Below are positions 2,965 to 26,793 of a stretch of 27,068 nt of DNA, piece by piece. The DNA is taken from positions 1 through 27,068 of the IMG/VR virus record IMGVR_UViG_3300006325_000101; one strand, given 5' to 3'. How positions within the stretch are numbered: position 1 is the stretch's first letter; the number at the start of each line of letters is the position of its first letter. Origin of the DNA: a virus. A program made the translations under genes and the position numbers. Below the pieces are notes generated by a model, which made no database searches, was not told where the DNA came from, and saw nothing but the letters and a program-made list of their open reading frames with translations.

Positions 2965-3498
2965 TTATCTTGCTTGTTCTAATTTAATTGATATATTTCC
3001 TGATATAACAACTCGATTATGTTCACATTCTTGTTTTGGAACGTAATGTGAAACAGTTCCAGGAAATATAATTATTAAACCAGTATTTGGTTTAATATTT
3101 CTTCCTGCCCCCGGAAAAATTAATGGAGCACACTTTGGACAAGCATCTACATAATATATAAATGACCAAAGTGATGGCCAATGGGCGTGTGGATTAGTAT
3201 TGTCTCCAGTTTTATAAATTACTCCCCAAGCATCTGTGCAATATGTTTCTCCAGTAGGATATGGATGAACTTCTTGTTTAAGTGTATCTATTGCAAAATC
3301 AATTATTAGTTTAAAATATTCATTCTTATACATATCCCAAGTAGTCATATCAGCTTTAACGTTTGTTTCGTGATTTTGTTGGTCACCAAGGTCACGTATA
3401 ATATTTGTTAAGAGTTCTTTAAACCCTTCAGCCTTAGGATATACGTTTGTATGTACAACCATTGGTTCTGTAAATAAAAATCGTTCTGAGTTTATCAT
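2965..3498 (-). CDS. Putative 2OG-Fe(II) oxygenase, paralog 3 of 3
   Basis: A 177-residue protein of the phage 2-oxoglutarate/Fe(II) oxygenase type (2OG-FeII_Oxy_5-like). The C-terminal half has HAHW at 104-107, the strand pair SFIYYVDA, PLIFPG, GLIIIFPG, then SHYV with His151, and NRVVISGN with Arg162 as the likely 2OG-binding Arg. The second residue of the usual HxD/E metal pair appears to be His here (HxH), a point needing care. Cys120, Cys123, Cys158 and His160 are conserved in all three paralogs. It starts at ATG 3498 overlapping the previous stop (ATGA) and is the last of the tandem, followed by a new promoter. It is the shortest and most divergent copy. The substrate is unknown; hydroxylation of a protein, nucleotide or glycan is possible. 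Confidence 0.7.
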   Translation of the reverse strand: MINSERFLFTEPMVVHTNVYPKAEGFKELLTNIIRDLGDQQNHETNVKADMTTWDMYKNEYFKLIIDFAIDTLKQEVHPYPTGETYCTDAWGVIYKTGDNTNPHAHWPSLWSFIYYVDACPKCAPLIFPGAGRNIKPNTGLIIIFPGTVSHYVPKQECEHNRVVISGNISIKLEQAR

Positions 3499-4103
3499 AA
3501 ATTTACTGCTACGTTTCCGGCTATTGAGAATCTATTATGATTACATTTATGTGGTGGAACAGCATGAGCTATCCAACCAGGAAATATAATTAATAATCCT
3601 GTTTTAGGAAAATGAAGGTTTGCGTCTTGACAATTTGGAAATACTATCGGTGCACAATCCTTACAAGCATCTATATAGTAAGTAAATGCCCATGTTGCCG
3701 GCCAATGATAATGTGGTTCTAATCCTAATGTCCAAGTTTCTTTAGAAGTGTTAGGCTTATACAATACACCCCAACAGTCAAGTATATATGGATCATTATT
3801 AAATCTATCCATATTAGGAAATAATGGTAGAGCTTCTTTTATTGTGTCTAGAGCAAAGTCTGTTATTTTTTTAAAGTATTCATTGTCTTGAAAGAGTTTA
3901 CGAAAATTAGCTGATTGCGGTCCTTTATTTATTGTTGAGTTTACAAAGGTAGTTTGCGTAGGTTCTTTATGATATGTTTGTTCTATTTTATCGTAGTCTA
4001 ATATAATTTTACTTAATAGAGGCTTTATAGTTTCAGCATCAGGATATGTGGTTGTAAATATATCACCACCTTCTAAAAATTGTTTTGTGTCAGAATTAAT
4101 CAT
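3495..4103 (-). CDS. Putative 2OG-Fe(II) oxygenase, paralog 2 of 3
   Basis: A 202-residue protein, the middle of three tandem paralogs. The shared core is HYHW (131-134), TYYIDAC, APIVFP, TGLLIIFPGW, AHAVPPHKC with His180, and HNRFSIAGN with Arg191. Cys147/Cys150 and Cys187/His189 repeat the CxxC plus CxH pattern of its neighbours. The N-terminal half (residues 1-100) is helical and similar in plan to the other copies: a TTYPDAETIKPLL segment and EYFKKITDFALDTIKE. It overlaps both neighbours by four bases (ATGA). The oxygenase call rests on the His/His/Arg spacing and the double-stranded beta-helix-like strand pattern; activity is unproven. Confidence 0.72.
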   Translation of the reverse strand: MINSDTKQFLEGGDIFTTTYPDAETIKPLLSKIILDYDKIEQTYHKEPTQTTFVNSTINKGPQSANFRKLFQDNEYFKKITDFALDTIKEALPLFPNMDRFNNDPYILDCWGVLYKPNTSKETWTLGLEPHYHWPATWAFTYYIDACKDCAPIVFPNCQDANLHFPKTGLLIIFPGWIAHAVPPHKCNHNRFSIAGNVAVNL

Positions 4104-4705
4104 AATTTTATTGCTACGTTTCCTGCTATTGATATTCGGTCATGTTCGCACTTATGCGGACCAACGCTATGTGTTACCCAGCCTGGAAATATAACTAGGT
4201 CCCCTGTTTTTGAGTTAATAGCATTTCTATTGTCAGTATTAGAAAATACTAACGGCGAACAATTTTCACAAGCATCTATATAATATGTAAAAGTCCACGT
4301 TGCAGGTATATGTCTATGTGGATGTAATCTTGGTGTATTAGCTACTCCTGGACCTCTAGATAAAAAAGATTTATTTAATACACCCCAAACATTTATTATA
4401 TAAGGTTCAACAGGCCAACTTGTAATCTTGCTATCATTGTTTTTATATGTTTCTATATCTGGAAATGATGGTGTGCATTCTTTAATAGTTTTTATTACAA
4501 AGTCAGTTATTTTTTTGAAATATGAGTCTTTAAGCATTACTTCTATTGAGTCCAAGGGTACTAACGGTGCCCAAGAAGTTTTCTCTTGCTTGTTATAAGT
4601 GTTTATTAGCTGTGTTAGAAACGGTTTTACTGTATCAGCGCCAGGATACGTATTCTGATAAACTTCACCAATTTCGTTAAATTCTTTTTTTGTTAATGCT
4701 GACAT
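4100..4705 (-). CDS. Putative 2OG-Fe(II) oxygenase, paralog 1 of 3
   Basis: A 201-residue protein, first of the tandem. From ATG 4705 the core residues are HRHI (about 130-133), TYYIDACENC, SPLVFS, TGDLVIFPGW, THSVGPHKC with His179, and HDRISIAGN with Arg190. It shares the CxxC and CxH cysteines. The frame can be extended two codons to a TTG at 4711; I prefer the ATG because it follows the preceding stop by nine bases and needs no rare start, although no clear ribosome binding site is visible for either. It follows the conserved unknown gene at 4715-5371 and probably shares its late promoter. Paralogs 1 and 2 are closer to each other than to paralog 3, suggesting serial duplication. Confidence 0.72.
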   Translation of the reverse strand: MSALTKKEFNEIGEVYQNTYPGADTVKPFLTQLINTYNKQEKTSWAPLVPLDSIEVMLKDSYFKKITDFVIKTIKECTPSFPDIETYKNNDSKITSWPVEPYIINVWGVLNKSFLSRGPGVANTPRLHPHRHIPATWTFTYYIDACENCSPLVFSNTDNRNAINSKTGDLVIFPGWVTHSVGPHKCEHDRISIAGNVAIKL

Positions 4706-4714
4706 TAACAATAC

Positions 4715-11255: not shown

Positions 11256-12272
11256 CTACGATTGGTTATCTCCTTCTACCCTGCTTACGTTTTGAGCGTC
11301 AAAGATTACAAGACCTTCAACTGCTTTATCACTAATTACTCCATCATAATCTTCTTTTTTTAAGTCCATTGTTAGTATTGCTGAGTACAATTGATCTCCA
11401 GTATACTCCCAGGGTTTAAGTCCCATCTTTGCTTTGATTTTTGCTACTTCTTCGCTTTGATAATCAGCTATTTTTAGCCCTGGCTTCACTTTATACTTAA
11501 CAATTTCGCCGTCAGCACCATGATGTACTGAAAATGCATTTGCGGCAGACTCTGTCCATGTAAGATAAATTCCTCTACCCAATGCACCAAGTCCTAACCC
11601 TTTGCCACCTTTGCCTTCTCCACGAAAAAATTCGCCCTTGCCTTCGTCATATAAATGTTGATAAAAATCTGCTTCTGATTCTATTATTTGTATGTCTTCT
11701 TCTTGGATACCCATACCATCACGAACTTTATTGAATAACATTTTTGCTACTTTAGGATCTGGACTACAAACTCCACTTTTAAATGTTTGAAGATCATTGT
11801 CAACCGCGGCCGCTTTCATTTTACTTGCACTCATACCTTCAGCACCTGCGGCATCTGGGTCACGTTGTCCTGCACTTATAACATTTATAGAATTAAATTG
11901 GTAATCATCACCACCGTTGTATTTGTTTAGTAATGTATCAAAATCTTTTACACGATCTTCACCAGCAACATAGATGAGATCAGTATATTTTCTGTTGTAA
12001 AGAAATTTACAACAATCAATAATAGTCCTAACACTATCGCTACCGATAGTGATACCATCACCAAAGCATTTACGAGCGAAAAAAACTTTTTCTGCAAATG
12101 ATAAAGGATCTGTTTTAGGTTTTTGTGTGTGGCTTAAGAATAAAAAAGGATCACCGGGCTGGTTTTTTACTACGTCAACTAATTTAGAATGACCGATAGT
12201 GGGCGGGTTCATTCGCCCAAAGGCAAATGTCGCAGTTTTTCCATCTTGTTCAATTAGTTGACGAATCAGCAT
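11256..12272 (-). CDS. Nucleotidyltransferase (NMNAT-like) fused to ADP-ribosyltransferase-like domain
   Basis: A 338-residue two-domain protein. Residues 12-190 are a cytidylyltransferase/NMN-adenylyltransferase-like fold: FAFGRMNPPTIGH (18-28, with the T/HxGH nucleotide-binding motif), YVAGEDR (101-107) and GMSASKMK (146-153) in the place of the ISSTxxR motif. Residues 205-332 look like an ADP-ribosyltransferase: FFRGEG (Arg217), GRGIYLTWTESAANAFS (232-248) and YDGVISDKAVEGLVIFDAQNV (split at 309-319 and 320-329), with Glu319 as candidate catalytic Glu. The leader MLIRQLIE|QDGK could be a prohead-protease site. T4 packages the ADP-ribosyltransferase Alt in its head, so an injected effector that also makes or uses NAD is conceivable. 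It starts at ATG 12272 (TAATG overlap). The first domain is firm; the second is a motif-level call. Confidence 0.8.
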   Translation of the reverse strand: MLIRQLIEQDGKTATFAFGRMNPPTIGHSKLVDVVKNQPGDPFLFLSHTQKPKTDPLSFAEKVFFARKCFGDGITIGSDSVRTIIDCCKFLYNRKYTDLIYVAGEDRVKDFDTLLNKYNGGDDYQFNSINVISAGQRDPDAAGAEGMSASKMKAAAVDNDLQTFKSGVCSPDPKVAKMLFNKVRDGMGIQEEDIQIIESEADFYQHLYDEGKGEFFRGEGKGGKGLGLGALGRGIYLTWTESAANAFSVHHGADGEIVKYKVKPGLKIADYQSEEVAKIKAKMGLKPWEYTGDQLYSAILTMDLKKEDYDGVISDKAVEGLVIFDAQNVSRVEGDNQS

Positions 12273-14131: not shown

Positions 14132-16372
14132 CTAGTGGACTGTATGTTTAATTTCCTCTTTTTCTAAAATAAATTTTTTATCTTTAACATTTATTTTAAT
14201 CTTTCCACCAGTTTTTAATGAGCCAAATAGTAACATTTTTGATAACGGACGTTTAATATCTTTATCAATTACACGTTGTAATGGTCTTGCACCCATTTTT
14301 TGATTAAATCCTTTATCAACTAATACGTCGATAGCTTCATCAGTAATACTTATGTCAACTTCCTTGTCTTTTAACATCTCTTTTAACTGTACTAAGAACT
14401 TACCAACAATTTTTATCATTGTGTTCTTATCTAGTTTATCGAACACAATAACACCGTCTAGTCTATTGCGGAACTCTGGAGGGAAGTATTTCTTAAGTTC
14501 CACATCTTCAAATTCTGCATCGTCACTACCAAATCCTATTAAACTTTTTTCTGCTTCTACGGCTCCTAAATTAGTTGTTAGGATTAAAATAATGTTTCTA
14601 CAATCTGCGGTTTTACCATTACTACCTGTAATAAATCCGTTGTCCATAATTTGTAATAATAACGAACTAACATCAGGGTGTGATTTTTCAATTTCATCTA
14701 ATAATAAAACACAATTCGGCGCTTCTTGTAATCCCGTTATAAGTTGTCCTGCATTTTCTTCAAATCCTACATATCCTGGAGGTGAACCAATTAGTTTAGA
14801 AACAGAATGTTTCTCTTGATACTCTGACATATCAAATCTAATAAGTTTTACGCCAAGTTGTTTAGCAAGTTGTCTGGCAGTTTCAGTTTTACCTATCCCC
14901 GTTGGGCCCATAAACACAAAAGAACCAATTGGTTTGTTGTCTTCTTTTAATCCTGCTTGGGCAACTAGTATTTTATCGACAATATCTGATACTGCAACAT
15001 CTTGTCCATAAATTTCACCCTTAATATTCTTTTCTAAGTTAGCAAGATTTTGTGTTTCTTTTTCTTTAACTTGCTCTTCAGGAAGATTAACAGCTTTTGC
15101 TAGTTCATATTGTATTTCGTCTTCAGTTACAATTCTTTCTTCAACTTTTTTAAGATTAAATCTTGAACAAGCACAATCAAGTAAGTCAATTGCTTTATCA
15201 GGTAGTTTTTTATCTGCTTGATATTTTATACTCAATTTAATTGAGGCATCAACAGCTTCTTCTGTAATAGTAGTATTATGAAATTCTTCATAATATTTTT
15301 TAATTCCAAGTAAAATTTCTTTTGTAACTTCTTTACTAGGTTCATCAATAGTAACTCTAGCAAATCTCCGCATTAAAGCTCTGTCACTTTCAAAAAACTT
15401 GCGATATTCTTCCCAAGTAGTAGATGCAACTACTTTAATATTACCTCTAGTTAATACAGGCTTTAACATATTTGCAAGATCGTTTGAACTGCTACTACCA
15501 GCCGCCCCTGCTCCGCTAATCATATGTGCTTCGTCAATAAACACAATAGTTTTACCACGTTTCTTTAATGCCGCAATTACTAACTTAAAACGTTCTTCAA
15601 AATCACCTCTATACTTACTACCTGCTAACATAGACCCAATATCTAAATTATAAACATTGTATTCTTGTAAAAATTCTGGACATTCTTTCTTTACAATTTT
15701 CCAAGCAAGTCCTTCTGCGATAGCAGTTTTACCTACACCAGGATCACCAACAAGTAAACAATTATTTTTTGTTCTACGCCCAAGTGCTAAGGCAATTGTA
15801 TCTAATTCTTCGTGTCTGCCTACAACTGGATCAATTTTTCCAGCATCAACTGATTGATTTAAATTAGTTGTAAAAGAACGTAACGCCCTAGAAGCCATTC
15901 CTTGTGTTTCTTCATCTTCATAATTTGCTTCTAGTTCATTGTTTAAGTAATCTGCAAATTTAGTTTTATCAATATTTGCTTTTGTAATATTATAATATGC
16001 CCATGACTTTTGTTCGTTCATCATGCTAAGAAAAACGTCAGAGATTTCAATACTTTGACGTCCGCTAAACAATACTTGTGTGAATGCTCTATTAAGAACA
16101 CGTTCTACGGCGTGTGTTTTTTTTGGTTTATACTTTTTCTTCTCAGGTTCAATAACTATAATATCTTTACAATTAGATTTTAGATAATGCTCAAGATTCT
16201 TTTTAATAAATTCATGGTCAGCACCAAAACCTTCCATAATTTTAGCAAAGCTATCTTCACATAACATAGCAAAGAGTAAATGCTCAATAGTTACGTATTC
16301 GTGGTTCAGTTTTTTAGAAACATCAACCGCTTTATCAAATACTAACTGTAATTGTTTACTAGGTTCAACCAT
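14132..16372 (-). CDS. clpA: ClpA-like AAA+ unfoldase with ClpP-binding loop
   Basis: A 746-residue double-ring AAA+ ATPase that would unfold proteins and feed them to ClpP. Order: Clp N-domain repeats (1-150), first AAA module with Walker A GDPGVGKT (209-216), pore loop KYRG (253) and Walker B IVFIDEAH (276-283), then second module with Walker A GPTGIGKT (489-496), pore loop GYVG (533-536) and Walker B VLLLDE (555-560). There is no ClpB middle coiled coil. LIGF at 611-614 lies where ClpA has its IGL/IGF loop for docking to ClpP, so protease partnership is likely retained. Length is close to E. coli ClpA (758). ATG 16372 follows def by two bases behind AAGGAT. No ClpP is present in the window, so host ClpP is the presumed partner. 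Confidence 0.96.
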   Translation of the reverse strand: MVEPSKQLQLVFDKAVDVSKKLNHEYVTIEHLLFAMLCEDSFAKIMEGFGADHEFIKKNLEHYLKSNCKDIIVIEPEKKKYKPKKTHAVERVLNRAFTQVLFSGRQSIEISDVFLSMMNEQKSWAYYNITKANIDKTKFADYLNNELEANYEDEETQGMASRALRSFTTNLNQSVDAGKIDPVVGRHEELDTIALALGRRTKNNCLLVGDPGVGKTAIAEGLAWKIVKKECPEFLQEYNVYNLDIGSMLAGSKYRGDFEERFKLVIAALKKRGKTIVFIDEAHMISGAGAAGSSSSNDLANMLKPVLTRGNIKVVASTTWEEYRKFFESDRALMRRFARVTIDEPSKEVTKEILLGIKKYYEEFHNTTITEEAVDASIKLSIKYQADKKLPDKAIDLLDCACSRFNLKKVEERIVTEDEIQYELAKAVNLPEEQVKEKETQNLANLEKNIKGEIYGQDVAVSDIVDKILVAQAGLKEDNKPIGSFVFMGPTGIGKTETARQLAKQLGVKLIRFDMSEYQEKHSVSKLIGSPPGYVGFEENAGQLITGLQEAPNCVLLLDEIEKSHPDVSSLLLQIMDNGFITGSNGKTADCRNIILILTTNLGAVEAEKSLIGFGSDDAEFEDVELKKYFPPEFRNRLDGVIVFDKLDKNTMIKIVGKFLVQLKEMLKDKEVDISITDEAIDVLVDKGFNQKMGARPLQRVIDKDIKRPLSKMLLFGSLKTGGKIKINVKDKKFILEKEEIKHTVH

Positions 16373-16374
16373 TG

Positions 16375-16890
16375 TTATCCTTGTTTAACTTTTTTTAAAA
16401 ATTTATGACGTTTCCTCTTAGCCATATCTAACTTTAATTTACTTACTCGATCTGTATAATTAATACCGTATAAGTGATCGTATTCGTGTCCAAATATTCT
16501 TGCATTCCAGCCTGTTAATTCTATAGTTTGTTCTTGTTGTTTACTATCAAAACATTCAACTATTAAGCCTGCAGGGCGTTTTACTTTAATATATAAGAAA
16601 GGAAAACTTAAACACCCTTCTTCACCTATAACTGTAGTGTCAGTTACGTGAGTTATTTTAGGGTTAATAATAGCAAATGGTACATCGTCTTCATAGCCTT
16701 TTAACTCAACTGGATTCATAATAAAGATTTGTGCATCTAGTTCAACTTGGTTAGCCGCTAATCCAATGCCCCTATGTTGGGTCATTATAGCTGACATTTC
16801 TTTTTCAATTTCTATAGCGTCGGTTACTTTAAAGTCGAACGGTGCTACCGTTTTTTCTAACCAGCTATTAGGAGCTTCTATTAATTTCAT
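16375..16890 (-). CDS. def: Peptide deformylase
   Basis: A 171-residue metalloenzyme that removes the formyl group from new protein N-termini. All three family motifs are present: GIGLAANQ (41-48), EGCLS (91-95, with the metal-binding Cys) and HEYDH (135-139, metal-binding His pair and catalytic Glu). Marine T4-like phages often carry such genes. Unlike the shortened phage forms, this one has a normal length and a basic C-terminal tail (AKRKRHKFLKKVKQG). Its start ATG 16890 lies 23 bases inside the end of dnaJ, and clpA follows two bases after its stop, so the three form one unit. Confidence 0.97.
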   Translation of the reverse strand: MKLIEAPNSWLEKTVAPFDFKVTDAIEIEKEMSAIMTQHRGIGLAANQVELDAQIFIMNPVELKGYEDDVPFAIINPKITHVTDTTVIGEEGCLSFPFLYIKVKRPAGLIVECFDSKQQEQTIELTGWNARIFGHEYDHLYGINYTDRVSKLKLDMAKRKRHKFLKKVKQG

Positions 16891-17737
16891 TCTGTATTTT
16901 TCTTAAACGTTCTCTAATTTTTTCATTCTTAATTTTAGGTGTAATACCATGTACTTTAATATATAATTTTCCAATTGTTCTAGTTCTATGATCTGGTAAA
17001 CCTTGTTCATGTACGCTAAATGTTGTTCCTGAGTTTGATCCTGCTGGTACTGTAACATTTAGTTTCTTACCGTGTAAAGTATCTATTTTAAGATTTGTAC
17101 CTAACATAAGATCAATTAAATCAATATTTTTATTTAGATATAAATCCAGTCCATCTACTTCGTAAATAGGATGTCTCTTTATTCTTATTTTAACATGAAG
17201 ATCCCCTGGTTGTCTACCTGGAAAGTGCTCATTTCCGCCCATGCCTCTAAAATTCATCATATCTCCATGTCTAACACCAGGAGGAATATCAATGTTAACA
17301 GTTTGTTCTTGTCCGCTAGGAAGTCTATATGATGCAAGTAATTTTTTACCTGTTACTACATCTTCTAAATCAATATCTGCGGCAATTGTTATGTTTTGAT
17401 TTTTTTGTCTTTGAAATCCGCGACCAAAAAACGGATTTCCTTGATTATCACCAAAGAATTGATTGAAGATATCTTCTACGTTTATATTATGATTAGTATG
17501 GAAATGAGTATGTTGTTGACGAGCTTGATGTTGCGGATCAACAGTACCAAATTGATCATACATTGATTTCTTTTGTGGATCCTTTAGTACGTCATATGCT
17601 TCATTAATTTCTTTAAATTGTTCTTCATTTCCCCCGCGATCAGGATGATATTGCATAGCTTTCTTTTTGAAAGCATCTTTAACATCGTTTTTTGAGGCGT
17701 TGCGAGGAACTCCTAGTATGTCGTAGTAATTTGCCAT
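16868..17737 (-). CDS. dnaJ: DnaJ/CbpA-type co-chaperone without zinc finger
   Basis: A 289-residue J-domain protein that should stimulate host DnaK. Residues 1-65 form the J domain with HPD at 31-33 and EINEAYDVLKDP. A Phe/Asn/Gly-rich linker (about 70-115) follows, then C-terminal substrate-binding domains with PPGVRHGDMMNFRGMG, PGDLHVKI and LTGxNL-like DLMLGTNLKI. The CxxCxGxG zinc-finger repeats of class A DnaJ are absent, so it is class B, like CbpA. It lies in front of def and clpA with overlapping genes, making a chaperone, deformylase and unfoldase operon. ATG 17737 gives the canonical MANYYDILGV start. Confidence 0.95.
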   Translation of the reverse strand: MANYYDILGVPRNASKNDVKDAFKKKAMQYHPDRGGNEEQFKEINEAYDVLKDPQKKSMYDQFGTVDPQHQARQQHTHFHTNHNINVEDIFNQFFGDNQGNPFFGRGFQRQKNQNITIAADIDLEDVVTGKKLLASYRLPSGQEQTVNIDIPPGVRHGDMMNFRGMGGNEHFPGRQPGDLHVKIRIKRHPIYEVDGLDLYLNKNIDLIDLMLGTNLKIDTLHGKKLNVTVPAGSNSGTTFSVHEQGLPDHRTRTIGKLYIKVHGITPKIKNEKIRERLRKIQNEINRSS

Positions 17738-17780: not shown

Positions 17781-18098
17781 TTATTTACGTCTTGGTATAC
17801 TTGCACCAGGCTTGCCAACATATAATCCAAAGAATGCCGCACCTGCACCAACTATAGTTGAGATGAACATAGCTTGGGCGTTAGTTGGATCTGGCAATCC
17901 CATAAACCAAGATACTGATGTATAGAAAGCATAAATGTATGCCAACATAATAAGTCTAGGTATTAATCTAAACTTATCCATAATACCAGCTGTTTGATTA
18001 TACCAGGTATTATCTTCGTCACCAGATGCAGGAACTAAATCTGCTTTATCTAATTCATATTCCCTACTAGTTTCTTTTACAGGAATTTTGTCACTCAC
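17781..18098 (-). CDS. Small two-helix membrane protein, holin candidate
   Basis: A 105-residue protein with a charged N-terminal 40 residues, two hydrophobic segments (about 46-66 and 74-96) and a short basic tail (SIPRRK). The segment FRLIPRLIMLAYIYAFYTSVSWFM followed by LPDPTNAQA and a Gly/Ala-rich second helix (IVGAGAAFFGLYVG) resembles a conserved small membrane protein of marine phages that is sometimes labelled as holin. Size and topology fit a class II holin, but so do other roles. It starts at ATG 18098, overlapping the MscS-like gene stop (ATGA), and is the last gene of the membrane block, about 3.9 kb from the endolysin. Confidence 0.7.
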   Translation of the reverse strand: MSDKIPVKETSREYELDKADLVPASGDEDNTWYNQTAGIMDKFRLIPRLIMLAYIYAFYTSVSWFMGLPDPTNAQAMFISTIVGAGAAFFGLYVGKPGASIPRRK

Positions 18099-18502
18099 TT
18101 TTTGTCTCCATTTTTAATAGTCTCGATATCTTTACGATTCTTAACAATTTCTGTCTTATTATTATTAGGAGTATGATCGAAGATAACCTTTTCTAATTTT
18201 AAAAATGGTATTCTATCATTAGGTACATAACGCCATATATAGTCGCCATCCCATTCACCACTTACTTTAGTAATTCCAAATACAGTTTCAGTTAGGCCTA
18301 TTTTTACTATTAATGCTCTTTCGCCGTCGAGTATAACTTTATCACCTTCTTTAAATTGAGGGTTTAATTTAAATGCTATACCTTTGGCAAGTTTAGTAGC
18401 CCAATCTTTAAACCAGATAGCAATCATTATGGACATTAATACAGCTATCCACGGCATTAATATATCTGTTAGCCCTAAGGATAAATCGCTTAATCCATTC
18501 AT
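18095..18502 (-). CDS. Miniature MscS-like membrane protein
   Basis: A 135-residue protein with one transmembrane helix (about 13-31) followed by an amphipathic basic helix and a beta domain. Residues 49-100 read FKEGDKVILDGERALIVKIG, then TVFG and YIWRYVPNDRIPFLK, which matches the plan of the MscS beta domain (GDxV, GxVxxI, T and a PN motif before the last strand; here VPN at 93-95). The usual MscS has three or more helices and a larger cytoplasmic cage (286 residues), so this is a stripped form. It overlaps both neighbours by ATGA. Whether it makes a channel is unknown; a wall-side or membrane-sensing role in lysis is possible. Confidence 0.6.
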   Translation of the reverse strand: MNGLSDLSLGLTDILMPWIAVLMSIMIAIWFKDWATKLAKGIAFKLNPQFKEGDKVILDGERALIVKIGLTETVFGITKVSGEWDGDYIWRYVPNDRIPFLKLEKVIFDHTPNNNKTEIVKNRKDIETIKNGDKK

Positions 18503-18747
18503 TTTTTGCTCTCCAACTTTTTCATACGTTTATCCATAGCCTCTAATTTTTCTTTAAGGATAGGAAATTTTCGCATCTGCTTTTCTTCGTCTGTTATTAA
18601 CTTTATGTGGTAGCGTTTAGCCGCCCAAGTGTATAATTGGTCTACTTTATTGTAAAACCATACACCTAGTTTCGTGCCGCGAAACCATTTTTCGGTTGCG
18701 CCACCTAGAATACTGCCAGCTATTGCTTTTATTAGAAAAAACCACAT
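18499..18747 (-). CDS. Small membrane-anchored protein with coiled-coil tail
   Basis: An 82-residue protein. The first 20 residues (MWFFLIKAIAGSILGGATEK) form a short hydrophobic, Gly-containing helix, followed by an aromatic and basic region and a C-terminal charged helix (ILKEKLEAMDKRMKKLESKK) that may be a coiled coil. It starts at ATG 18747 with AAAGGAGC and a NATAAATA late promoter 25 bases upstream. It overlaps the MscS-like gene by ATGA. I do not recognise a family. Confidence 0.7.
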   Translation of the reverse strand: MWFFLIKAIAGSILGGATEKWFRGTKLGVWFYNKVDQLYTWAAKRYHIKLITDEEKQMRKFPILKEKLEAMDKRMKKLESKK

Positions 18748-18772
18748 TTTTGCTCCTTTAATAATGTATTAG

Positions 18773-18780
18773 TATTTATC
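18773..18780 (-). promoter_or_regulatory. Late promoter, NATAAATA type
   Basis: The minus strand reads GATAAATA in the 43-base gap between genes at 18791 and 18747, 26 bases before the start and followed by AAAGGAGC. It splits the membrane block into an upstream stator-like part and a downstream part with the MscS-like and holin-like genes. Confidence 0.72.
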
Positions 18781-18790
18781 AGGATGTGGT

Positions 18791-19591
18791 TTACGGAATA
18801 TCGTTGGCGCTTCCGCCTCTATCTGTGGGTAATTGCTGTTCTTGGGTGTTATTATTAATATCTGGTGTACCATCTGGTGATACACCTATATCAACTTGTT
18901 CTTCTGGTGTCCCGTCAGAAGTATTAGCTTGTTGCTCTCTAATAGAGTCAGTATCACCAAAGAAAGAAGTAGGTTCTTCAGGTGGTGTAGGTTGATGGAT
19001 AATCTTAGATGTCTTATCACCCGTATCTATTATAGTATAATCCTTTATATTAATATGGTCTTCAGGTAAGATATATGGAACGTATTTTTGACGGTCTTCT
19101 TTTTCATCACCCTTATGTGAATTTCCTTTTTTCTTAGGTACAATTTTTACTGAAATTGCTTGACCACCTCGTTGGCTTTCAATGCCAACTAACATCTTAT
19201 GTAATTCTTTGTCGTAAGGCATAATATAAGCACGAGGCTGACCTTTGTTAGCTACTAATCCTAATTTAACTAACCAAGCCATTTTATGTTCTTCGCTTTT
19301 CTTTGGTATTAACCATACGTAAATATTACCCTCTATATTTCTTTTTACATTGGGTTCTACAATATATGATCCTACAAGATAATAACTTTTGTTATTAGGG
19401 TGTTCTGCATACGGAAATCCGTAGATTGCTTTTAATCCTATCCATGAACTTGCTATAGATAGTAATAATGCTATAGTTATTATAGCTTTAACATACCATC
19501 TAGTATTAGATGAAGTAATAAAGATCCATAGTACTAGGGAGCTAATCAATAGTAATACAAGTACTAAAAATACGTGACCTTGAATAACCAT
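18791..19591 (-). CDS. Two-helix membrane protein with long disordered tail, stator-operon partner
   Basis: A 266-residue protein. Two hydrophobic helices (about 6-26 and 34-53) are followed by a soluble region (about 60-155) with strands such as YYLVGSYIV and NIYVWLIPKK, a charged Lys-rich section, and a Pro/Asp/Gln-rich tail of about 70 residues. No OmpA-like or other peptidoglycan-binding motif is seen. It starts at ATG 19591, overlapping the stop of the ExbD-like gene by one base (TAATG), so it belongs to the same transcript and may be a third subunit. Function unknown. Confidence 0.75.
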   Translation of the reverse strand: MVIQGHVFLVLVLLLISSLVLWIFITSSNTRWYVKAIITIALLLSIASSWIGLKAIYGFPYAEHPNNKSYYLVGSYIVEPNVKRNIEGNIYVWLIPKKSEEHKMAWLVKLGLVANKGQPRAYIMPYDKELHKMLVGIESQRGGQAISVKIVPKKKGNSHKGDEKEDRQKYVPYILPEDHINIKDYTIIDTGDKTSKIIHQPTPPEEPTSFFGDTDSIREQQANTSDGTPEEQVDIGVSPDGTPDINNNTQEQQLPTDRGGSANDIP

Positions 19592-20262
19592 TAGTTTCCT
19601 TCCGAAGTGTCGTAACCACTATTTTCAACAGTTTTAACTATTTGAAATGGAAGTTCATTAAGTTCTATAATATCACCGTCTTCGTTTACAGTAAATCGTA
19701 CAATTGTTTTCTCTTCACCTTTGCGAATTAAAAAAACTTTTTTAAGATACACTAAACCATATGGGTTTAGTTTTTCTATGTTAACCACTACAGGTATTTG
19801 ATCATAATAGTCTTTATCAAGTACTTCATTTCGTGGTGCTCGTCTATATAAATGTATATTGACAATATATTCGCCTGCAATAATACCTCTAATTGTTACG
19901 TGTTCTATATTACGTCTAACAGTAACCTTTTTACCAGTTGTAAGCATTACGGTATCATTAGACCTTCCTAGATCATCTCTATCTAGGTTCATTAACCCTC
20001 TATCTTTTTGTTTAAAGCCAACTACATTTCCAATTGGATCTTTAACCCAAGTATCAATGTCATCTTCACTATTATCTGGCCATGAAGTTGTAATGATAAA
20101 TTCTGCAATTACTTCTACATTAGATTTTTTAGCAACTGGATTTATTAAGATAAAAGCTAAAACAAAAAGAAAAACGAAACCCACTAAGGTATTGAAAAGC
20201 AAATCAATGAATGCTATTTGGGAACCGTATGTTCTAATTCGATCAAGTCGAAGAAATCTCAT
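19591..20262 (-). CDS. ExbD/TolR/MotB-like single-span membrane protein
   Basis: A 223-residue protein with a short basic N-terminus, one transmembrane helix beginning AFIDLLFNTLVGFVFLFVLA (about 17-40) and a soluble, probably periplasmic region of beta strands. An Asp sits at the start of the helix (residue 20), the position of the proton-carrying Asp in ExbD, TolR and MotB. The periplasmic part (YIVNIHLYRRAP, VYLKKVFLIRKGEEKTIV) does not look like an OmpA domain. The frame extends to a TTG at 20277, but ATG 20262 has AAAGG seven bases upstream. It overlaps the ExbB-like gene by 20 bases, the order found in ion-driven stator pairs. The partner makes this call; alone it would be weak. Confidence 0.68.
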   Translation of the reverse strand: MRFLRLDRIRTYGSQIAFIDLLFNTLVGFVFLFVLAFILINPVAKKSNVEVIAEFIITTSWPDNSEDDIDTWVKDPIGNVVGFKQKDRGLMNLDRDDLGRSNDTVMLTTGKKVTVRRNIEHVTIRGIIAGEYIVNIHLYRRAPRNEVLDKDYYDQIPVVVNIEKLNPYGLVYLKKVFLIRKGEEKTIVRFTVNEDGDIIELNELPFQIVKTVENSGYDTSEGN

Positions 20263-20773
20263 TCCTGTACCTTTCAAGGTCTTGCTGGAGTCTAAAGTAC
20301 TGGAATTTTAATAGTGTGCTTGTTATTAAACCTGTAAGTGTTGTATACAATGCAGTAGACATTCCAACTGCCATATTTGCTAATGCTTGTTGAACAGATG
20401 AAACGTCAGATATATTAATACCTTTAAACGCACCTGTTAACATTAATATAAAACCAGCAACCGTACCAATTAGCCCCATAGTTAATAAGACATCCGAAGC
20501 GAACCATCCTGTCTCGTGCCGTATATCAACGTTTTTAATTTCGTCTAACTCTTTATTTGCTAGTTTGCTTAATAACCAAGATTCATAACCGCAATGAACT
20601 GTCATCCCGTAGAAGATCGTGAGGATCAAAAACGATAATTTCGTTTTATCATTTACCCAAAGGGTAGTGTGTACATCGAATAATAATAGCCCGATAGTCG
20701 CAACTATTAATAAACTAAAGAACCACCACCACTTCAAGAAGATAGTGTGTTTCCTAATAGCCGGTATGTCCAT
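20243..20773 (-). CDS. ExbB/TolQ/MotA-like proton-channel protein
   Basis: A 176-residue protein with four hydrophobic segments (about 14-33, 45-62, 92-113 and 131-155). The third and fourth carry the family hallmarks: LTMGLIGTVAGFILMLTGAF (97-116) and ALANMAVGMSTALYTTLTGL (130-149), with conserved Gly and Thr residues of the ExbB/TolQ ion path (TT at 144-145). Family members use proton or sodium flow to drive work across the envelope as pentamers around a dimer of the ExbD/MotB subunit. The cytoplasmic loop is short, so this is a minimal form. The next gene encodes the expected single-span partner. The energised substrate and purpose in a phage are unknown. Confidence 0.82.
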   Translation of the reverse strand: MDIPAIRKHTIFLKWWWFFSLLIVATIGLLLFDVHTTLWVNDKTKLSFLILTIFYGMTVHCGYESWLLSKLANKELDEIKNVDIRHETGWFASDVLLTMGLIGTVAGFILMLTGAFKGINISDVSSVQQALANMAVGMSTALYTTLTGLITSTLLKFQYFRLQQDLERYRNEISST

Positions 20774-20822: not shown

Positions 20823-20841
20823 TAGGCATAGGATATGCCTA
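20823..20841 (-). terminator. Hairpin between spanin and stator-like genes, possible terminator
   Basis: An exact inverted repeat TAGGCATA / TATGCCTA with a three-base loop lies 17 bases after the outer spanin stop. On the minus strand it is followed by AAAATTTCTTTTT, a broken U-run. It may end the lysis transcript before the stator-like genes; the stem is AT-rich and short, so termination would be partial at best. Confidence 0.45.
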
Positions 20842-20857
20842 TTAAGTGTATAGATAA

Positions 20858-21244
20858 TTATTCTTTCTTAATTTTATCTTCAGGCTCGTAATATTCTTTA
20901 TATTGATTGATTATTTCTCTTTGCTTAATAATATACGCTCTTATTTGTGCAAAATTTATACTAAGAGTTTCATAACCTTCATCTGTGAGTCCAAAAAGAA
21001 CTGGATCAGCGCCTGATTGTTTAACTTTTTCAAGAACCTCTGCAGAATTTTCTGAGTTGATAATGTACCACTTTAACTCCTCTACCTTAAGCGGATCAGG
21101 AAGTTGTAAGTTGAGCGGTTGTCGTTCAACTTCTGTTTTAAAAATGTCCAGCTTCTTTACAGTACTACAACTAGTTGTAAGAAATATAATTGGGATTAGC
21201 AATACTAGGACACTCAGGATTGATCTGAGACTTCTTCGTTGCAT
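20858..21244 (-). CDS. Outer-membrane lipoprotein, o-spanin-like
   Basis: A 128-residue protein with a type II signal peptide: basic MQRRSLRS, hydrophobic ILSVLVLLIPIIFL and lipobox LTTSC, giving lipidation at Cys26. The mature part has a Pro/Leu-rich stretch (LNLQLPDPLKVEE) and ends in a charged helix. Its start overlaps the end of the inner-membrane gene by 74 bases in another frame, the classic overlapping arrangement of Rz/Rz1 spanins, which fuse inner and outer membranes in the last step of lysis. At about 100 mature residues it is larger than lambda Rz1. Function is inferred from arrangement and signal. Confidence 0.75.
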   Translation of the reverse strand: MQRRSLRSILSVLVLLIPIIFLTTSCSTVKKLDIFKTEVERQPLNLQLPDPLKVEELKWYIINSENSAEVLEKVKQSGADPVLFGLTDEGYETLSINFAQIRAYIIKQREIINQYKEYYEPEDKIKKE

Positions 21245-21665
21245 TTTTCTCTTTCTCCGTTAAAGGTGAACCGGTAGCGATTTCAAAACATCTATTCGCA
21301 TGAGCAGTTCCTTTATTAATGACTTTTTCCATAATTTTTGCTTTTTTAAGAGCAAGGGCGCCTACATCACGCTTTTTGCCTGATGCATTTATTTTATTAA
21401 ATTTTTCTTCTGTATCTGCTAGTTCTTTAGCAAGTGTTAAATTTGTTTGTTGTAACGCTTTACTAATTTCTTGTTGCTTTTTAAAGTCTGCTTGTACTTG
21501 TTCTATAACAGCTCTTTGATCAGAAATACTTTGTTCTAATTTCATATTATTAGCTTCACTAACAGCCAAGTCAGCTTTAAGTGTTTTTACATACACATAA
21601 GCACCACCAATACCGCTGAGTATTGCTAGTATTATTATAATTTTTATGGTACTAAATATTCCCAC
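21171..21665 (-). CDS. Inner-membrane coiled-coil protein, i-spanin-like
   Basis: About 164 residues with an N-terminal transmembrane helix (IKIIIILAILSGIGGAYVYV), a long heptad-patterned coiled coil (about 30-105), and a C-terminal region with ANRCFEIATGSPLT and a second Cys (NPECPS). This is the plan of Rz-type i-spanins, including the CFEIATG segment. The frame also offers GTG at 21671, but GTG 21665 has GGAG seven bases upstream. It overlaps the acyl-carrier-like gene by 14 bases and the lipoprotein gene by 74. It lies on the same transcript as the endolysin, supporting a lysis role. Confidence 0.78.
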   Translation of the reverse strand: MGIFSTIKIIIILAILSGIGGAYVYVKTLKADLAVSEANNMKLEQSISDQRAVIEQVQADFKKQQEISKALQQTNLTLAKELADTEEKFNKINASGKKRDVGALALKKAKIMEKVINKGTAHANRCFEIATGSPLTEKEKNATKKSQINPECPSIANPNYISYN

Positions 21666-21885
21666 TTTCACTCTCCGCTAATTTAATAATATCGTCTACA
21701 GTAACAAGATGTTCCATTTTATCTTCGGGCATAGTAATATTTAACTTTTCTTCTACAGCAAGACAGACTTCGATAATATCCATATCGTCGCCATCCAAGT
21801 CGTCAATTATACCGTGCTTAGGTTCTATTGTTACGTCTTTCCCAAAATGTTCGTGTAATGCTTCCATTACTTTATCTTTAATCAT
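21652..21885 (-). CDS. Acyl-carrier-protein-like protein lacking the phosphopantetheine serine
   Basis: A 77-residue protein with the acidic four-helix layout of acyl carrier proteins: IDDLDGDDMDIIEVCLAVEE, then LNITMPEDKMEHLVTVDDII. In true ACPs the second helix begins DSLD with the Ser that carries 4'-phosphopantetheine; here the four residues are DDMD, with Asp in place of Ser. A carrier function by that route is therefore not expected; it may act as a decoy or adaptor for ACP-binding enzymes. ATG 21885 is preferred to ATG 21897 because it has GAGGA six bases upstream and overlaps the stop of the CxxC gene. It sits between endolysin and spanins. Confidence 0.8.
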   Translation of the reverse strand: MIKDKVMEALHEHFGKDVTIEPKHGIIDDLDGDDMDIIEVCLAVEEKLNITMPEDKMEHLVTVDDIIKLAESESGNI

Positions 21886-22009
21886 TGTATTCCTCATCGT
21901 ATCTAGCTTGGTAACAAACTATAATTTCTACGGGTTTATTATCACCGTCCATAAATTCTTCAGTTAATTTACCTTCGTGTTTACGTCCACAGTTTTGACA
22001 CGTTCTCAT
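21878..22009 (-). CDS. 43-residue CxxC protein
   Basis: A short gene encoding MRTCQNCGRKHEGK and on to YQARYDEEYND, with Cys4, Cys7, His11 and Cys32 as possible zinc ligands. It starts at ATG 22009, overlapping the endolysin stop as ATGA, and ends eight bases inside the ACP-like gene. This exact packing supports real coding. Function unknown; it could bind zinc or a nucleic acid. Confidence 0.65.
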   Translation of the reverse strand: MRTCQNCGRKHEGKLTEEFMDGDNKPVEIIVCYQARYDEEYND

Positions 22010-22530
22010 ATCATATTTAAGGCTATGTTCGACGTTTCACTTACTCGTCTGGTCCAGCCTCTTCCAAATGTTTCAAACGTGGATAAACTCTCATAATATC
22101 CTTGTCTAGCATCTTGGTACTCACGAATTGCTATTTCTACACCGTTTGCTTCAACAAATTCGTTTACTTTACTAATTGTATTTGGGCCTATAGCCCCATC
22201 TACTCCTGCTCCGACTAGCTCTTGTAGGTATCTAGCGGCTCGTCCTGTGCCAGCGTTTACGCCAAAGTCGAATACGCACAGATCTAAACCGGCGGGCAAA
22301 TTATCTGCATGAACCCTGCCCCAGTAGTTCTTTTCATAAATAGGAGCAACATCATCTTCAGTTAATGCTTTCATAGTGTCAGCATCAACCTCGTGTCCTA
22401 CCCATCCTTCATAAGTCCGTTTAGTAACACCCATATTAGTGATACCACCTGGATCCTTAGGGTGATTAACGTAACCACCCTCGTGGTCTAAGATTATCGA
22501 AAGTGCGTCTCTGTAATTCTCTCTCGCCAT
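22006..22530 (-). CDS. GH108-type endolysin (N-acetylmuramidase)
   Basis: A 174-residue lysozyme-like protein. The glycosyl hydrolase 108 signature DHEGGYVNHPKDPGGITNMG (15-34) contains the catalytic Glu17 of the EGGY motif. Then come YWGRVHADNLPAG, DFGVNAGTGRAARYLQ and a C-terminal peptidoglycan-binding-type region (GVDGAIGPNTISKV). It would cleave the glycan strands of the host wall. There is no signal peptide, so export must rely on a holin. Length is typical. It starts at ATG 22530, 13 bases after the unknown gene at 22544, and begins the lysis block with spanins. Confidence 0.93.
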   Translation of the reverse strand: MARENYRDALSIILDHEGGYVNHPKDPGGITNMGVTKRTYEGWVGHEVDADTMKALTEDDVAPIYEKNYWGRVHADNLPAGLDLCVFDFGVNAGTGRAARYLQELVGAGVDGAIGPNTISKVNEFVEANGVEIAIREYQDARQGYYESLSTFETFGRGWTRRVSETSNIALNMI

Positions 22531-25475: not shown

Positions 25476-26137
25476 TTTAATTCGTTTATTATAGGAAAAA
25501 TTCCTGCAATTACTTTGGCACAAGCATGAGCAATATCCATGTGTTCTTTTTGTGTACCATGCCCGCCACGTAATTCAATATAATGAACCCATGAACGAAG
25601 TGTGCCATTCATATATAGTCGTGTTTTAGTTAATCCTTCAGGTAATACGGCTCTTGCTTGTTCTTTAGCAATTCCTTCACCAAGTGCCCAGTCATATGCT
25701 TCTTTGCATTTATCAATTACTTGTTGTTGTTTTCGTCCCCAAGCCATTTGTAAAACGTCATCTTCAACAGCTATAGAATTTTGTCTATTTTTTGGATCTT
25801 GTAAACGTGCTTCTCTAAAAGTAAATGCATTTTCCATGTCTTGTGGATTTGCATATCGTTGGCTAAATTCTTGGAAGGCAAATGATCTGTGTCTTACTAT
25901 TTGGTGGGCTATATCTCTTGTAGTATTAATTTCAAGACAGGCACTAACCATCTCTAATGGTGACCAATGTTTGTGCTTAATCAAATACTTAATAAGTTTA
26001 GCACTTGTTTCAGTATTCATTTGATTACTGGGATTACTAACCCTAGCACAAAAGGCAATTAAGTCTTGAGCGTCTTCTAATCCTTCTTCTAAAAAATCAT
26101 CTGATGGTTTTGAATACGAAACTAATTTTACACTCAT
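25472..26137 (-). CDS. thyX: Flavin-dependent thymidylate synthase ThyX
   Basis: A 221-residue enzyme making dTMP from dUMP using FAD, NADPH and methylene-tetrahydrofolate. The ThyX signature is present as RHRSFAFQEFSQRY (82-95): the Arg-His-Arg and the second Ser (92) are kept, while the first Ser of the usual RHRxxSxxxxSxR is Ala87. Other family parts are HKHWSPLEM (His near the flavin), EQARAVLPEGLTKTRLYMNG and WVHYIELR. The frame extends to 26179, but ATG 26137 overlaps the parvulin stop (ATGA) and gives a normal N-terminus. It supplies thymidylate for phage DNA synthesis. Confidence 0.96.
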   Translation of the reverse strand: MSVKLVSYSKPSDDFLEEGLEDAQDLIAFCARVSNPSNQMNTETSAKLIKYLIKHKHWSPLEMVSACLEINTTRDIAHQIVRHRSFAFQEFSQRYANPQDMENAFTFREARLQDPKNRQNSIAVEDDVLQMAWGRKQQQVIDKCKEAYDWALGEGIAKEQARAVLPEGLTKTRLYMNGTLRSWVHYIELRGGHGTQKEHMDIAHACAKVIAGIFPIINELK

Positions 26138-26451
26138 CCTGTTCTCAATATAATATGTACTCCAAAGGGTGAAATACAAGGCGGCCCTATGTCGTCTTTT
26201 TGAATACTTTTACAGGCTTGTGAAAATTCTATAGCCATTGCTGATTCTTCAAACCAACCAAGGTCCCCTCCTCGCTCTTTGCTAGGACAAGCACTATTTT
26301 CTCTAGCCGCTTGTTCAAAAGATATGCCGCCTGCTTTTAATTCTCTTATTAGTTCCTCGGCTTCATTCATTGCAACTGCAATTCCTCTACTATGTGTAGG
26401 AGGATTGGCATCACGATGACTTAATAATATGTGTGATGCTCGTAATTTCAT
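26134..26451 (-). CDS. Stand-alone parvulin-type prolyl isomerase
   Basis: A 105-residue rotamase domain with no signal peptide, so cytoplasmic. It follows the PpiC/parvulin pattern: ASHIL (His7), FEQAARENSACPSKERGGDL (split at Ser/Cys55), LGWF, and a C-terminal FGVHIILRTG with the second conserved His98. The length is that of E. coli PpiC (93). It would speed cis/trans Xaa-Pro changes, probably in phage structural proteins. It starts at ATG 26451, directly after the ferredoxin stop, and overlaps thyX by four bases. Confidence 0.95.
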   Translation of the reverse strand: MKLRASHILLSHRDANPPTHSRGIAVAMNEAEELIRELKAGGISFEQAARENSACPSKERGGDLGWFEESAMAIEFSQACKSIQKDDIGPPCISPFGVHIILRTG

Positions 26452-26793
26452 TTAATCTCCCTTACCTGGATTTTCACTAAAGTGTTCCATCTTTCCAGGA
26501 ACGTTTTCCCATTCCTTAACATCCTCTGGAACATCTTCTGGTCGTTTCTTTGTAATGTTAGGCCAACTGTTTGCCCACTTTTCATTTAGGATAAACCATT
26601 CTTCACTACCGGGTGTATTATCGTCAATAATTGCTTCTACAGGACATTCAGGTTCACACACACCACAGTCGATACATTCGTCTGGATGTATAACTAACAT
26701 ATTCTCGCCTTCGTAAAAACAATCTACAGGACAAACTTCAACACAATCCATGTGTTTACATTTGATACAACTATCATTTACTAGGTATGTCAT
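26452..26793 (-). CDS. fdxA: 7Fe-type ferredoxin, alphaproteobacterial FdxA type
   Basis: A 113-residue ferredoxin with two iron-sulfur clusters. The first part has [20 protein letters not shown] (Cys9, 12, 17, 21, 25), the second [17 protein letters not shown] (Cys40, 43, 46, 50), followed by the long C-terminal extension typical of FdxA ([20 protein letters not shown]). It is very similar to cellular FdxA of alphaproteobacteria as I recall them, which suggests recent gain from the host. It is likely to carry electrons for a reductase or for ThyX-linked or other metabolism in infected cells; no partner oxidoreductase is in the window. It starts at ATG 26793, inside the end of the preceding gene. 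Confidence 0.94.

Follow-up and report, generated by a model that had tools for sequence, protein, structure and literature searches.

A three-gene relative of ion-driven envelope motors shared by phages and bacterial chromosomes

Introduction

What would a phage do with the parts of an ion-driven motor? Flagella, the Ton and Tol systems, gliding and Zorya are all known to use ion-driven stators. The question is raised here by a 27 kb record from a marine virus of bacteria (IMG/VR IMGVR_UViG_3300006325_000101), whose whole stretch of 27,068 nucleotides we call the window. An earlier reading of its letters, the original prediction, had proposed a minimal phage-encoded stator-like pair, an ExbB/MotA-like gene overlapping an ExbD/MotB-like one.

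We followed this proposal through profile searches, structural models, surveys of phage and bacterial genomes and comparison of gene neighbourhoods. Our best reading places the locus, which we call B-D-T after its three genes, within the ExbBD/TolQR/MotAB/ZorAB superfamily, as a still uncharacterised variant that phages carry in minimal form.

Results

The locus encodes a translationally coupled trio. The genes run in the order B, D, T on the minus strand, from 20773 to 18791. B (20243..20773, minus; 176 aa) is a MotA/TolQ/ExbB-type channel subunit with minimal cytoplasmic parts. D (19591..20262, minus; 223 aa from its ATG) combines one helix bearing Asp20 with a predicted TerD-like periplasmic beta-sandwich. 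T (18791..19591, minus) is modelled by AF2 as a two-helix hairpin, a predicted periplasmic alpha/beta domain (about residues 67-150) and a disordered tail. D overlaps B by 20 nt, and T starts at once after D. B and D lie exactly where the original prediction had placed its two genes, and the two-helix protein with a disordered tail that it saw beside them is T. Its term "pair" holds for the adjacency of B and D, but the real unit is three genes, T being conserved as well. As it had also stated, no TonB gene and no nuclease partner is seen beside the trio; TolA and Pal genes are absent there as well. A search for a T4-type late promoter upstream of B found TATAAATA absent from the window and CTAAATAC at chance level.

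B is a bona fide member of the MotA/TolQ/ExbB family, as had been proposed from its motifs. It matches Pfam MotA_ExbB (PF01618) with E 2.1e-9 and 37.7 bits, above the cut-off of 22.9, and the same family is matched by 37 of 39 diverse B relatives at E<=0.1. PHROG offered nothing informative for the protein (best E 0.027), and a tblastn search of 50,697 phage records found no match; its close relatives are 71-98% identical. The proposed four-helix plan stands for the family, with four membrane helices predicted in 34 of the 39 relatives by a hydropathy count that recovered only two helices in the window's own B. "Minimal" is an apt description of this subunit: phage B proteins span 138-188 aa (median 159) against a chromosomal-set median of 235 aa, and the C-terminus ends about 20 residues past the last helix.

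The pore residues of the family are retained in B. Alignment of B sequences reveals five invariant residues (D42, G100, G103, T145 and G148). Thr104 and Thr145 align with threonines present in all 27 members of a comparison set of ExbB/TolQ-type proteins from twelve genomes, and both positions, which fall in the last two helices, are threonine in 77/77 aligned chromosomal B rows. We take these columns to be the T148 and T181 positions of ExbB. The helix glutamate of the G-[IL]-[AS]-E-A-L motif occurs in 19 of the 27 comparison rows and in none of 31 phage and 77 chromosomal B rows.

D supplies the expected aspartate helix but departs from ExbD and MotB in its soluble part. The AF2 model places a single N-terminal helix at residues 13-40, with Asp20 near its start, in agreement with the original prediction. 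Asp20 is the sole invariant residue of the membrane helix across 42 diverse sequences, and the equivalent aspartate is also invariant in a set combining phage and chromosomal D proteins. The soluble domain keeps W61, D68, D70, L93, D96, D97, G99, N102 and E120 across the same 42 sequences. The ExbD/MotB-like label therefore survives for the helix but not for the rest: neither the window's D nor any of 32 members searched matched ExbD/TolR (PF02472) or MotB (PF13677) at E<=1 or an OmpA-like peptidoglycan-binding domain in Pfam, and no Pfam family reached E<0.01 in the 32 members. Profile-profile alignment with hhalign gave the D-ExbD helix region a probability of 2.8%, in a comparison whose positive control, ExbD-MotB, likewise fails at 2.9%.

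Modelling suggests that the periplasmic domain of D has a TerD-like fold rather than an ExbD or OmpA-like one. The AF2 model, a helix plus beta-sandwich of moderate confidence (pLDDT 74), fits solved TerD structures best (3ibz, Z 11.2; 2qng, 9.7; 2qz7, 9.4; 2kxt, 8.6), with DUF4425 next among bacterial families and well below (Z 6.7), these scores re-ranking Foldseek's list only, so that further families could fit the domain. Foldseek alone returned 2qng with E 2e-4. The TerD sequence profile (PF02342) found no match at E<=1 among the 32 D members.

T is a conserved third subunit with a probable periplasmic domain. Its modelled fold had no significant match in the PDB, and its hhalign similarity to ExbD is weak (6.4%). 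The loop between its two helices is net positive in 37 of 40 sequences, suggesting that the loop is cytoplasmic and the T domain periplasmic. The N-terminus of D is also positive on average, less uniformly than the T loop (26 of 42). From this predicted topology of D and T, the trio should act in the periplasm. Taken together, the architecture and homology of the trio are well supported, and the invariant residues of B and D strongly suggest, at the level of sequence, that the two couple to ion flow.

The trio is inherited as a set across phages. Scanning IMG/VR with D gave 135 stretches that encode it. We retained 80 loci, which together with other loci yielded 51 non-redundant D proteins. 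B lies directly upstream of D in 47 of the 51 lineages. The B of L044 was recovered by profile search and that of L040 by translating the gap, and L045 and L051, cut by the contig end, were left out of the count. The B-D pair is thus present in all 49 testable lineages, bearing out the proposed adjacency of the second gene to the first, and T, judged by position, directly follows D in 51/51. Such retention of the pair with T directly downstream is not a chance pattern. Gaps between the genes mostly range from -47 to +9 nt, and distances between lineages run in parallel for B, D and T, with matrix correlations of 0.81-0.88, a level reached by none of 999 permutations. T assignments in the most diverged rows rest on position, size and the two-helix plan rather than a strong profile score; a first T profile scored none in several diverged loci, and a deeper profile recovered most.

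Carriers range from giant marine phages to isolated Rhizobium phages. D occurs once in each of ten large virus records, five of which have a terminase match. Isolated phages encoding D account for 27 records, all Rhizobium or Sinorhizobium phages, and comprise Pootjesviridae such as P10VF and RHph_Y68, phages of 59-69 kb and the classical temperate phage 16-3, where the trio is p038, p040 and p042. A homing endonuclease gene separates B from D in two phages, annotated in L112 and recognised from GIY-YIG-like sequence in L113. That the gene order survived such insertions supports selection acting on the whole set.

Bacterial chromosomes carry the same trio. A genome-contig scan with a narrower D alignment found 36 loci, nearly all with B-D-T, although some of the other bins among them may be phage contigs. 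Chromosomal neighbours, read from sequence, include trpE/trpG-like genes in SAR116, suf-like genes in alphaproteobacterial bins and PQQ-dehydrogenase-like genes in gammaproteobacteria. Among sampled species, D was matched in 57 of 385 alphaproteobacteria and 40 of 369 gammaproteobacteria; where examined, these loci are mostly flanked by B and T, as called by a simple gene caller that miscalls GC-rich loci. "Phage-encoded" is accordingly correct for many phages, but the trio is not phage-specific. In the D tree neither phages nor cells form one clade, and at least six changes are forced, a figure limited by long branches, rough bootstraps and possible mis-binning. Many chromosomal trios are followed by a fourth gene, which varies, as read from sequence: a lipoprotein-like protein of about 235 aa with a YFPL..G..W motif (L157, L177, L195, L197, L199), a VWA-like protein (L165, L169) or an FHA-like protein (L198).

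Gene neighbourhoods differ between phage lineages and indicate no single pathway for that reason. Common neighbours outside the window's clade are ClpS, Hsp20, ClpP, DnaK and trypsin-like proteases. ClpS starts at most about 25 bp after the end of T in most of L019-L024, L036-L044, L052, L065 and L101. In the 59-69 kb rhizobial phages, a predicted periplasmic trypsin-like protease lies directly before B in L109 (3511-4158), L112 (3093-3803) and L113 (3057-3779), and another precedes B with one small gene between in L111 (6238-7137). The trio of L112 follows an annotated attL.

The original prediction had named envelope weakening at lysis, superinfection exclusion and interference with the host Tol/Exb system or Zorya as roles that the pair could have. 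One possible role is superinfection exclusion or anti-phage sensing, in which a Zorya-like motor would sense envelope or wall damage and block an incoming phage. The ion-driven core is common to ZorAB, B has weak profile matches to ZorA, and the cassette of Rhizobium phage RHph_TM3_3_14B lies behind a trypsin-like protease and an annotated attL, where lysogenic-conversion genes are commonly located. Such a role is nonetheless unlikely. B lacks the long cytoplasmic tail of ZorA, D has no peptidoglycan-binding domain of the OmpA-like kind, and we saw no ZorC/D/E-like partner; trios in giant phages or alone on chromosomes are also less expected of a defence system.

The window itself suggests a lysis module. 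Directly upstream of B on the same strand stand an Rz1-like lipoprotein o-spanin (20858..21244, minus; PHROG 812, Rz-like spanin, E 8.7e-11), 84 bp from the start of B, an Rz-like i-spanin (21171..21671, minus; PHROG 739, Rz-like spanin, E 4e-9) and a GH108 endolysin (22006..22530, minus; Pfam 5.8e-30, PHROG endolysin 3e-49). With these, the trio might dissipate or use the proton motive force for a holin-like collapse, or weaken the outer membrane mechanically. Members of the window's clade share this gene order, and we identified no holin among the clustered genes. Two of the 59-69 kb rhizobial phages have an annotated lysozyme gene some 3 kb upstream, accompanied in one of them by an "endopeptidase". 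A terminator-like hairpin between Rz1 and B (20823..20841, minus; 8 pairs and a T-rich tail) argues against this role: it is kept in relatives by alignment, with a compensatory base-pair change in L003. Direct adjacency to lysis genes is moreover confined to the window's clade. The families that matched at least two of 87 non-redundant neighbours across lineages included none for lysis, the Pootjesviridae trio adjoins gyrase and late sigma genes, and chromosomal copies exist. The hairpin and the differing neighbourhoods elsewhere weaken a lysis-specific role, which we regard as quite improbable.

Two further sets of genes in this region deserve mention. Between endolysin and Rz lies an acyl carrier protein-like gene (21652..21897, minus; Pfam PP-binding 1.1e-4, over the cut-off; PHROG 5934, 3.5e-9), also kept in relatives of the window's clade. 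Six membrane-like genes stand in a row at 17781-20773 (minus), encoding B, D, T and proteins of 82, 135 and 105 aa, and a holin may be among them. The 105-aa protein matches PHROG 10198, of unknown function (2.2e-21). The 135-aa protein (18095-18502, minus) resembles by eye a membrane segment plus an MscS beta-domain, an MscS-like reading that we dropped on finding only a weak PDB match (MscS 4hw9, E 0.82).

Farther downstream in the window, the neighbours offer a lead towards protein quality control. In the window's clade, T is followed by conserved genes for DnaJ (16868-17737, minus), at about 1 kb, peptide deformylase (16375-16890, minus) and ClpA (14132-16372, minus), at about 2.4 kb; DnaJ and the deformylase are named from sequence. 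The trio could form a proteostasis-linked envelope machine that, with Clp, Hsp20 or HtrA-type proteins, extracts or degrades envelope proteins during infection. Elsewhere, many marine lineages have ClpS close behind T, three have ClpP before B, and trypsin-like proteases adjoin the trio in rhizobial phages and L063. Chromosomal copies have other neighbours, however, large phages often cluster such genes, and the apparent enrichment is biased because the categories were picked after the neighbours had been seen, so that we set its Fisher value aside as evidence; we hold this role to be somewhat less probable even than one in lysis. Finally, it is highly improbable that the trio is a passive passenger or a dominant-negative decoy whose B and D poison host ExbBD/TolQR by mixed assembly: the small size of B and its intact pore motif would suit a decoy, but the conservation of T and of the soluble acidic residues of D, strict co-inheritance and stand-alone chromosomal trios point to a complete machine.

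A few features elsewhere in the window were also noted. Three tandem related genes at 2965-4711 (minus) include at least one 2OG-Fe(II) oxygenase (PF13759, 5.4e-11). A PPIC-type rotamase stands beside a ferredoxin with DUF3470 at 26134-26793 (minus), in a phage. At 11256-12272 (minus), a 338-aa protein without a Pfam match appears by eye to have a nucleotidyltransferase-like start (GRMNPPTIGH) and a second half that is possibly ADP-ribosyltransferase-like.

Discussion

On the reading that we favour, B-D-T is a motor of the inner membrane, driven by ions and built like ExbBD, TolQR and MotAB, with periplasmic output; in phages it would act on the host envelope. We give this reading a probability of about 0.62. 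Counting against it are the missing ExbD and MotB profile matches of D, the lost helix glutamate of B, the moderate confidence of the D model, the lack of a fold match for T and the variable neighbours. By analogy with known stators, the helices of two D subunits would sit within a ring of five B subunits. Protons, or possibly Na+, would pass by way of D Asp20 and the ring of B threonines (Thr104 and Thr145), and the predicted folds and topology suggest that the motion would be delivered in the periplasm by the TerD-like D domains and the periplasmic domain of T. Since the trio has no large cytoplasmic part, we expect its output in the envelope, the Ton/Tol arrangement, rather than at a cytoplasmic rotor (Mot) or rod (Zorya). 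Bacteria hold the system on the chromosome, whereas the smaller phage form would belong to their auxiliary genes. The most likely use of the trio in phages is on the host envelope during infection, where it may alter or keep the inner membrane, the wall or the outer membrane; exclusion of superinfecting phages and lysis are the main competing uses.

A larger claim can be made only tentatively. B-D-T might constitute a distinct class of ion-driven envelope motor, apart from Mot, Ton/Tol, gliding and Zorya, that is present on many proteobacterial chromosomes, has moved between cells and phages several times and serves phages for active mechanical control of the envelope during infection; no motor of this kind would have been described in a phage before. 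Its occurrence in many phages and on the chromosomes of many marine bacteria gives the trio the look of an overlooked envelope machine borrowed by phages. As a conserved stator relative with a new periplasmic domain, it would be an undescribed machine, held by roughly a tenth of the sampled alpha- and gammaproteobacterial species and by phages from soil and sea, whose channel subunit, at 138-188 aa, is unusually small. Isolated Rhizobium phages that carry it, 16-3 among them, make the trio directly testable.

A search over open-licence papers found no description of the trio. It resembles ExbB-ExbD and TolQ-TolR in the Pfam family of the channel subunit, both pore threonines, an Asp-helix partner and predicted periplasmic output. 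It differs from them in that no TonB, TolA or Pal adjoins the trio and the modelled D domain is TerD-like instead of having the ExbD/TolR fold; most B proteins have four helices, and B has next to no cytoplasmic domain and lacks the helix glutamate; and the two-helix T is always present. With MotA-MotB the trio shares the four-helix plan of the channel subunit and the aspartate of the partner helix, but it lacks the torque-generating cytoplasmic domain, the plug/linker and the OmpA-like peptidoglycan-binding domain (PMC12505986). The beta-sandwiches of the TerD and DUF4425 families share the modelled fold of the D domain; D differs from TerD in lacking a sequence-profile match to it, in its membrane anchor and in its pairing with an ion channel.

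ZorA-ZorB would, by homology, share an ion-driven 5:2 core with the trio, and B has its weak ZorA matches. In Zorya a conserved aspartate packs against a Ser/Thr ring, the same logic as in the B-D residues, and function needs the tail, peptidoglycan binding and ion flow (PMC11890865). B-D-T has neither the ZorA tail, the OmpA-like ZorB domain nor effector genes, and it sits on phages and on chromosomes without noted defence neighbours. We rejected membership of Zorya on the missing tail of B and the missing peptidoglycan-binding domain of D. An ExbB-type gene has also been reported on chronic phages of Lentisphaerae, where it was suggested to be auxiliary and to help in polysaccharide metabolism; the portion of that account dealing with it presents a single TonB-system gene and describes no D or T partners (PMC11361711). 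Non-flagellar stator relatives with varied added domains have been grouped as "generic ion transporters" (mBio 2025, PMC12505986), and B-D-T fits this broad group as a new variant.
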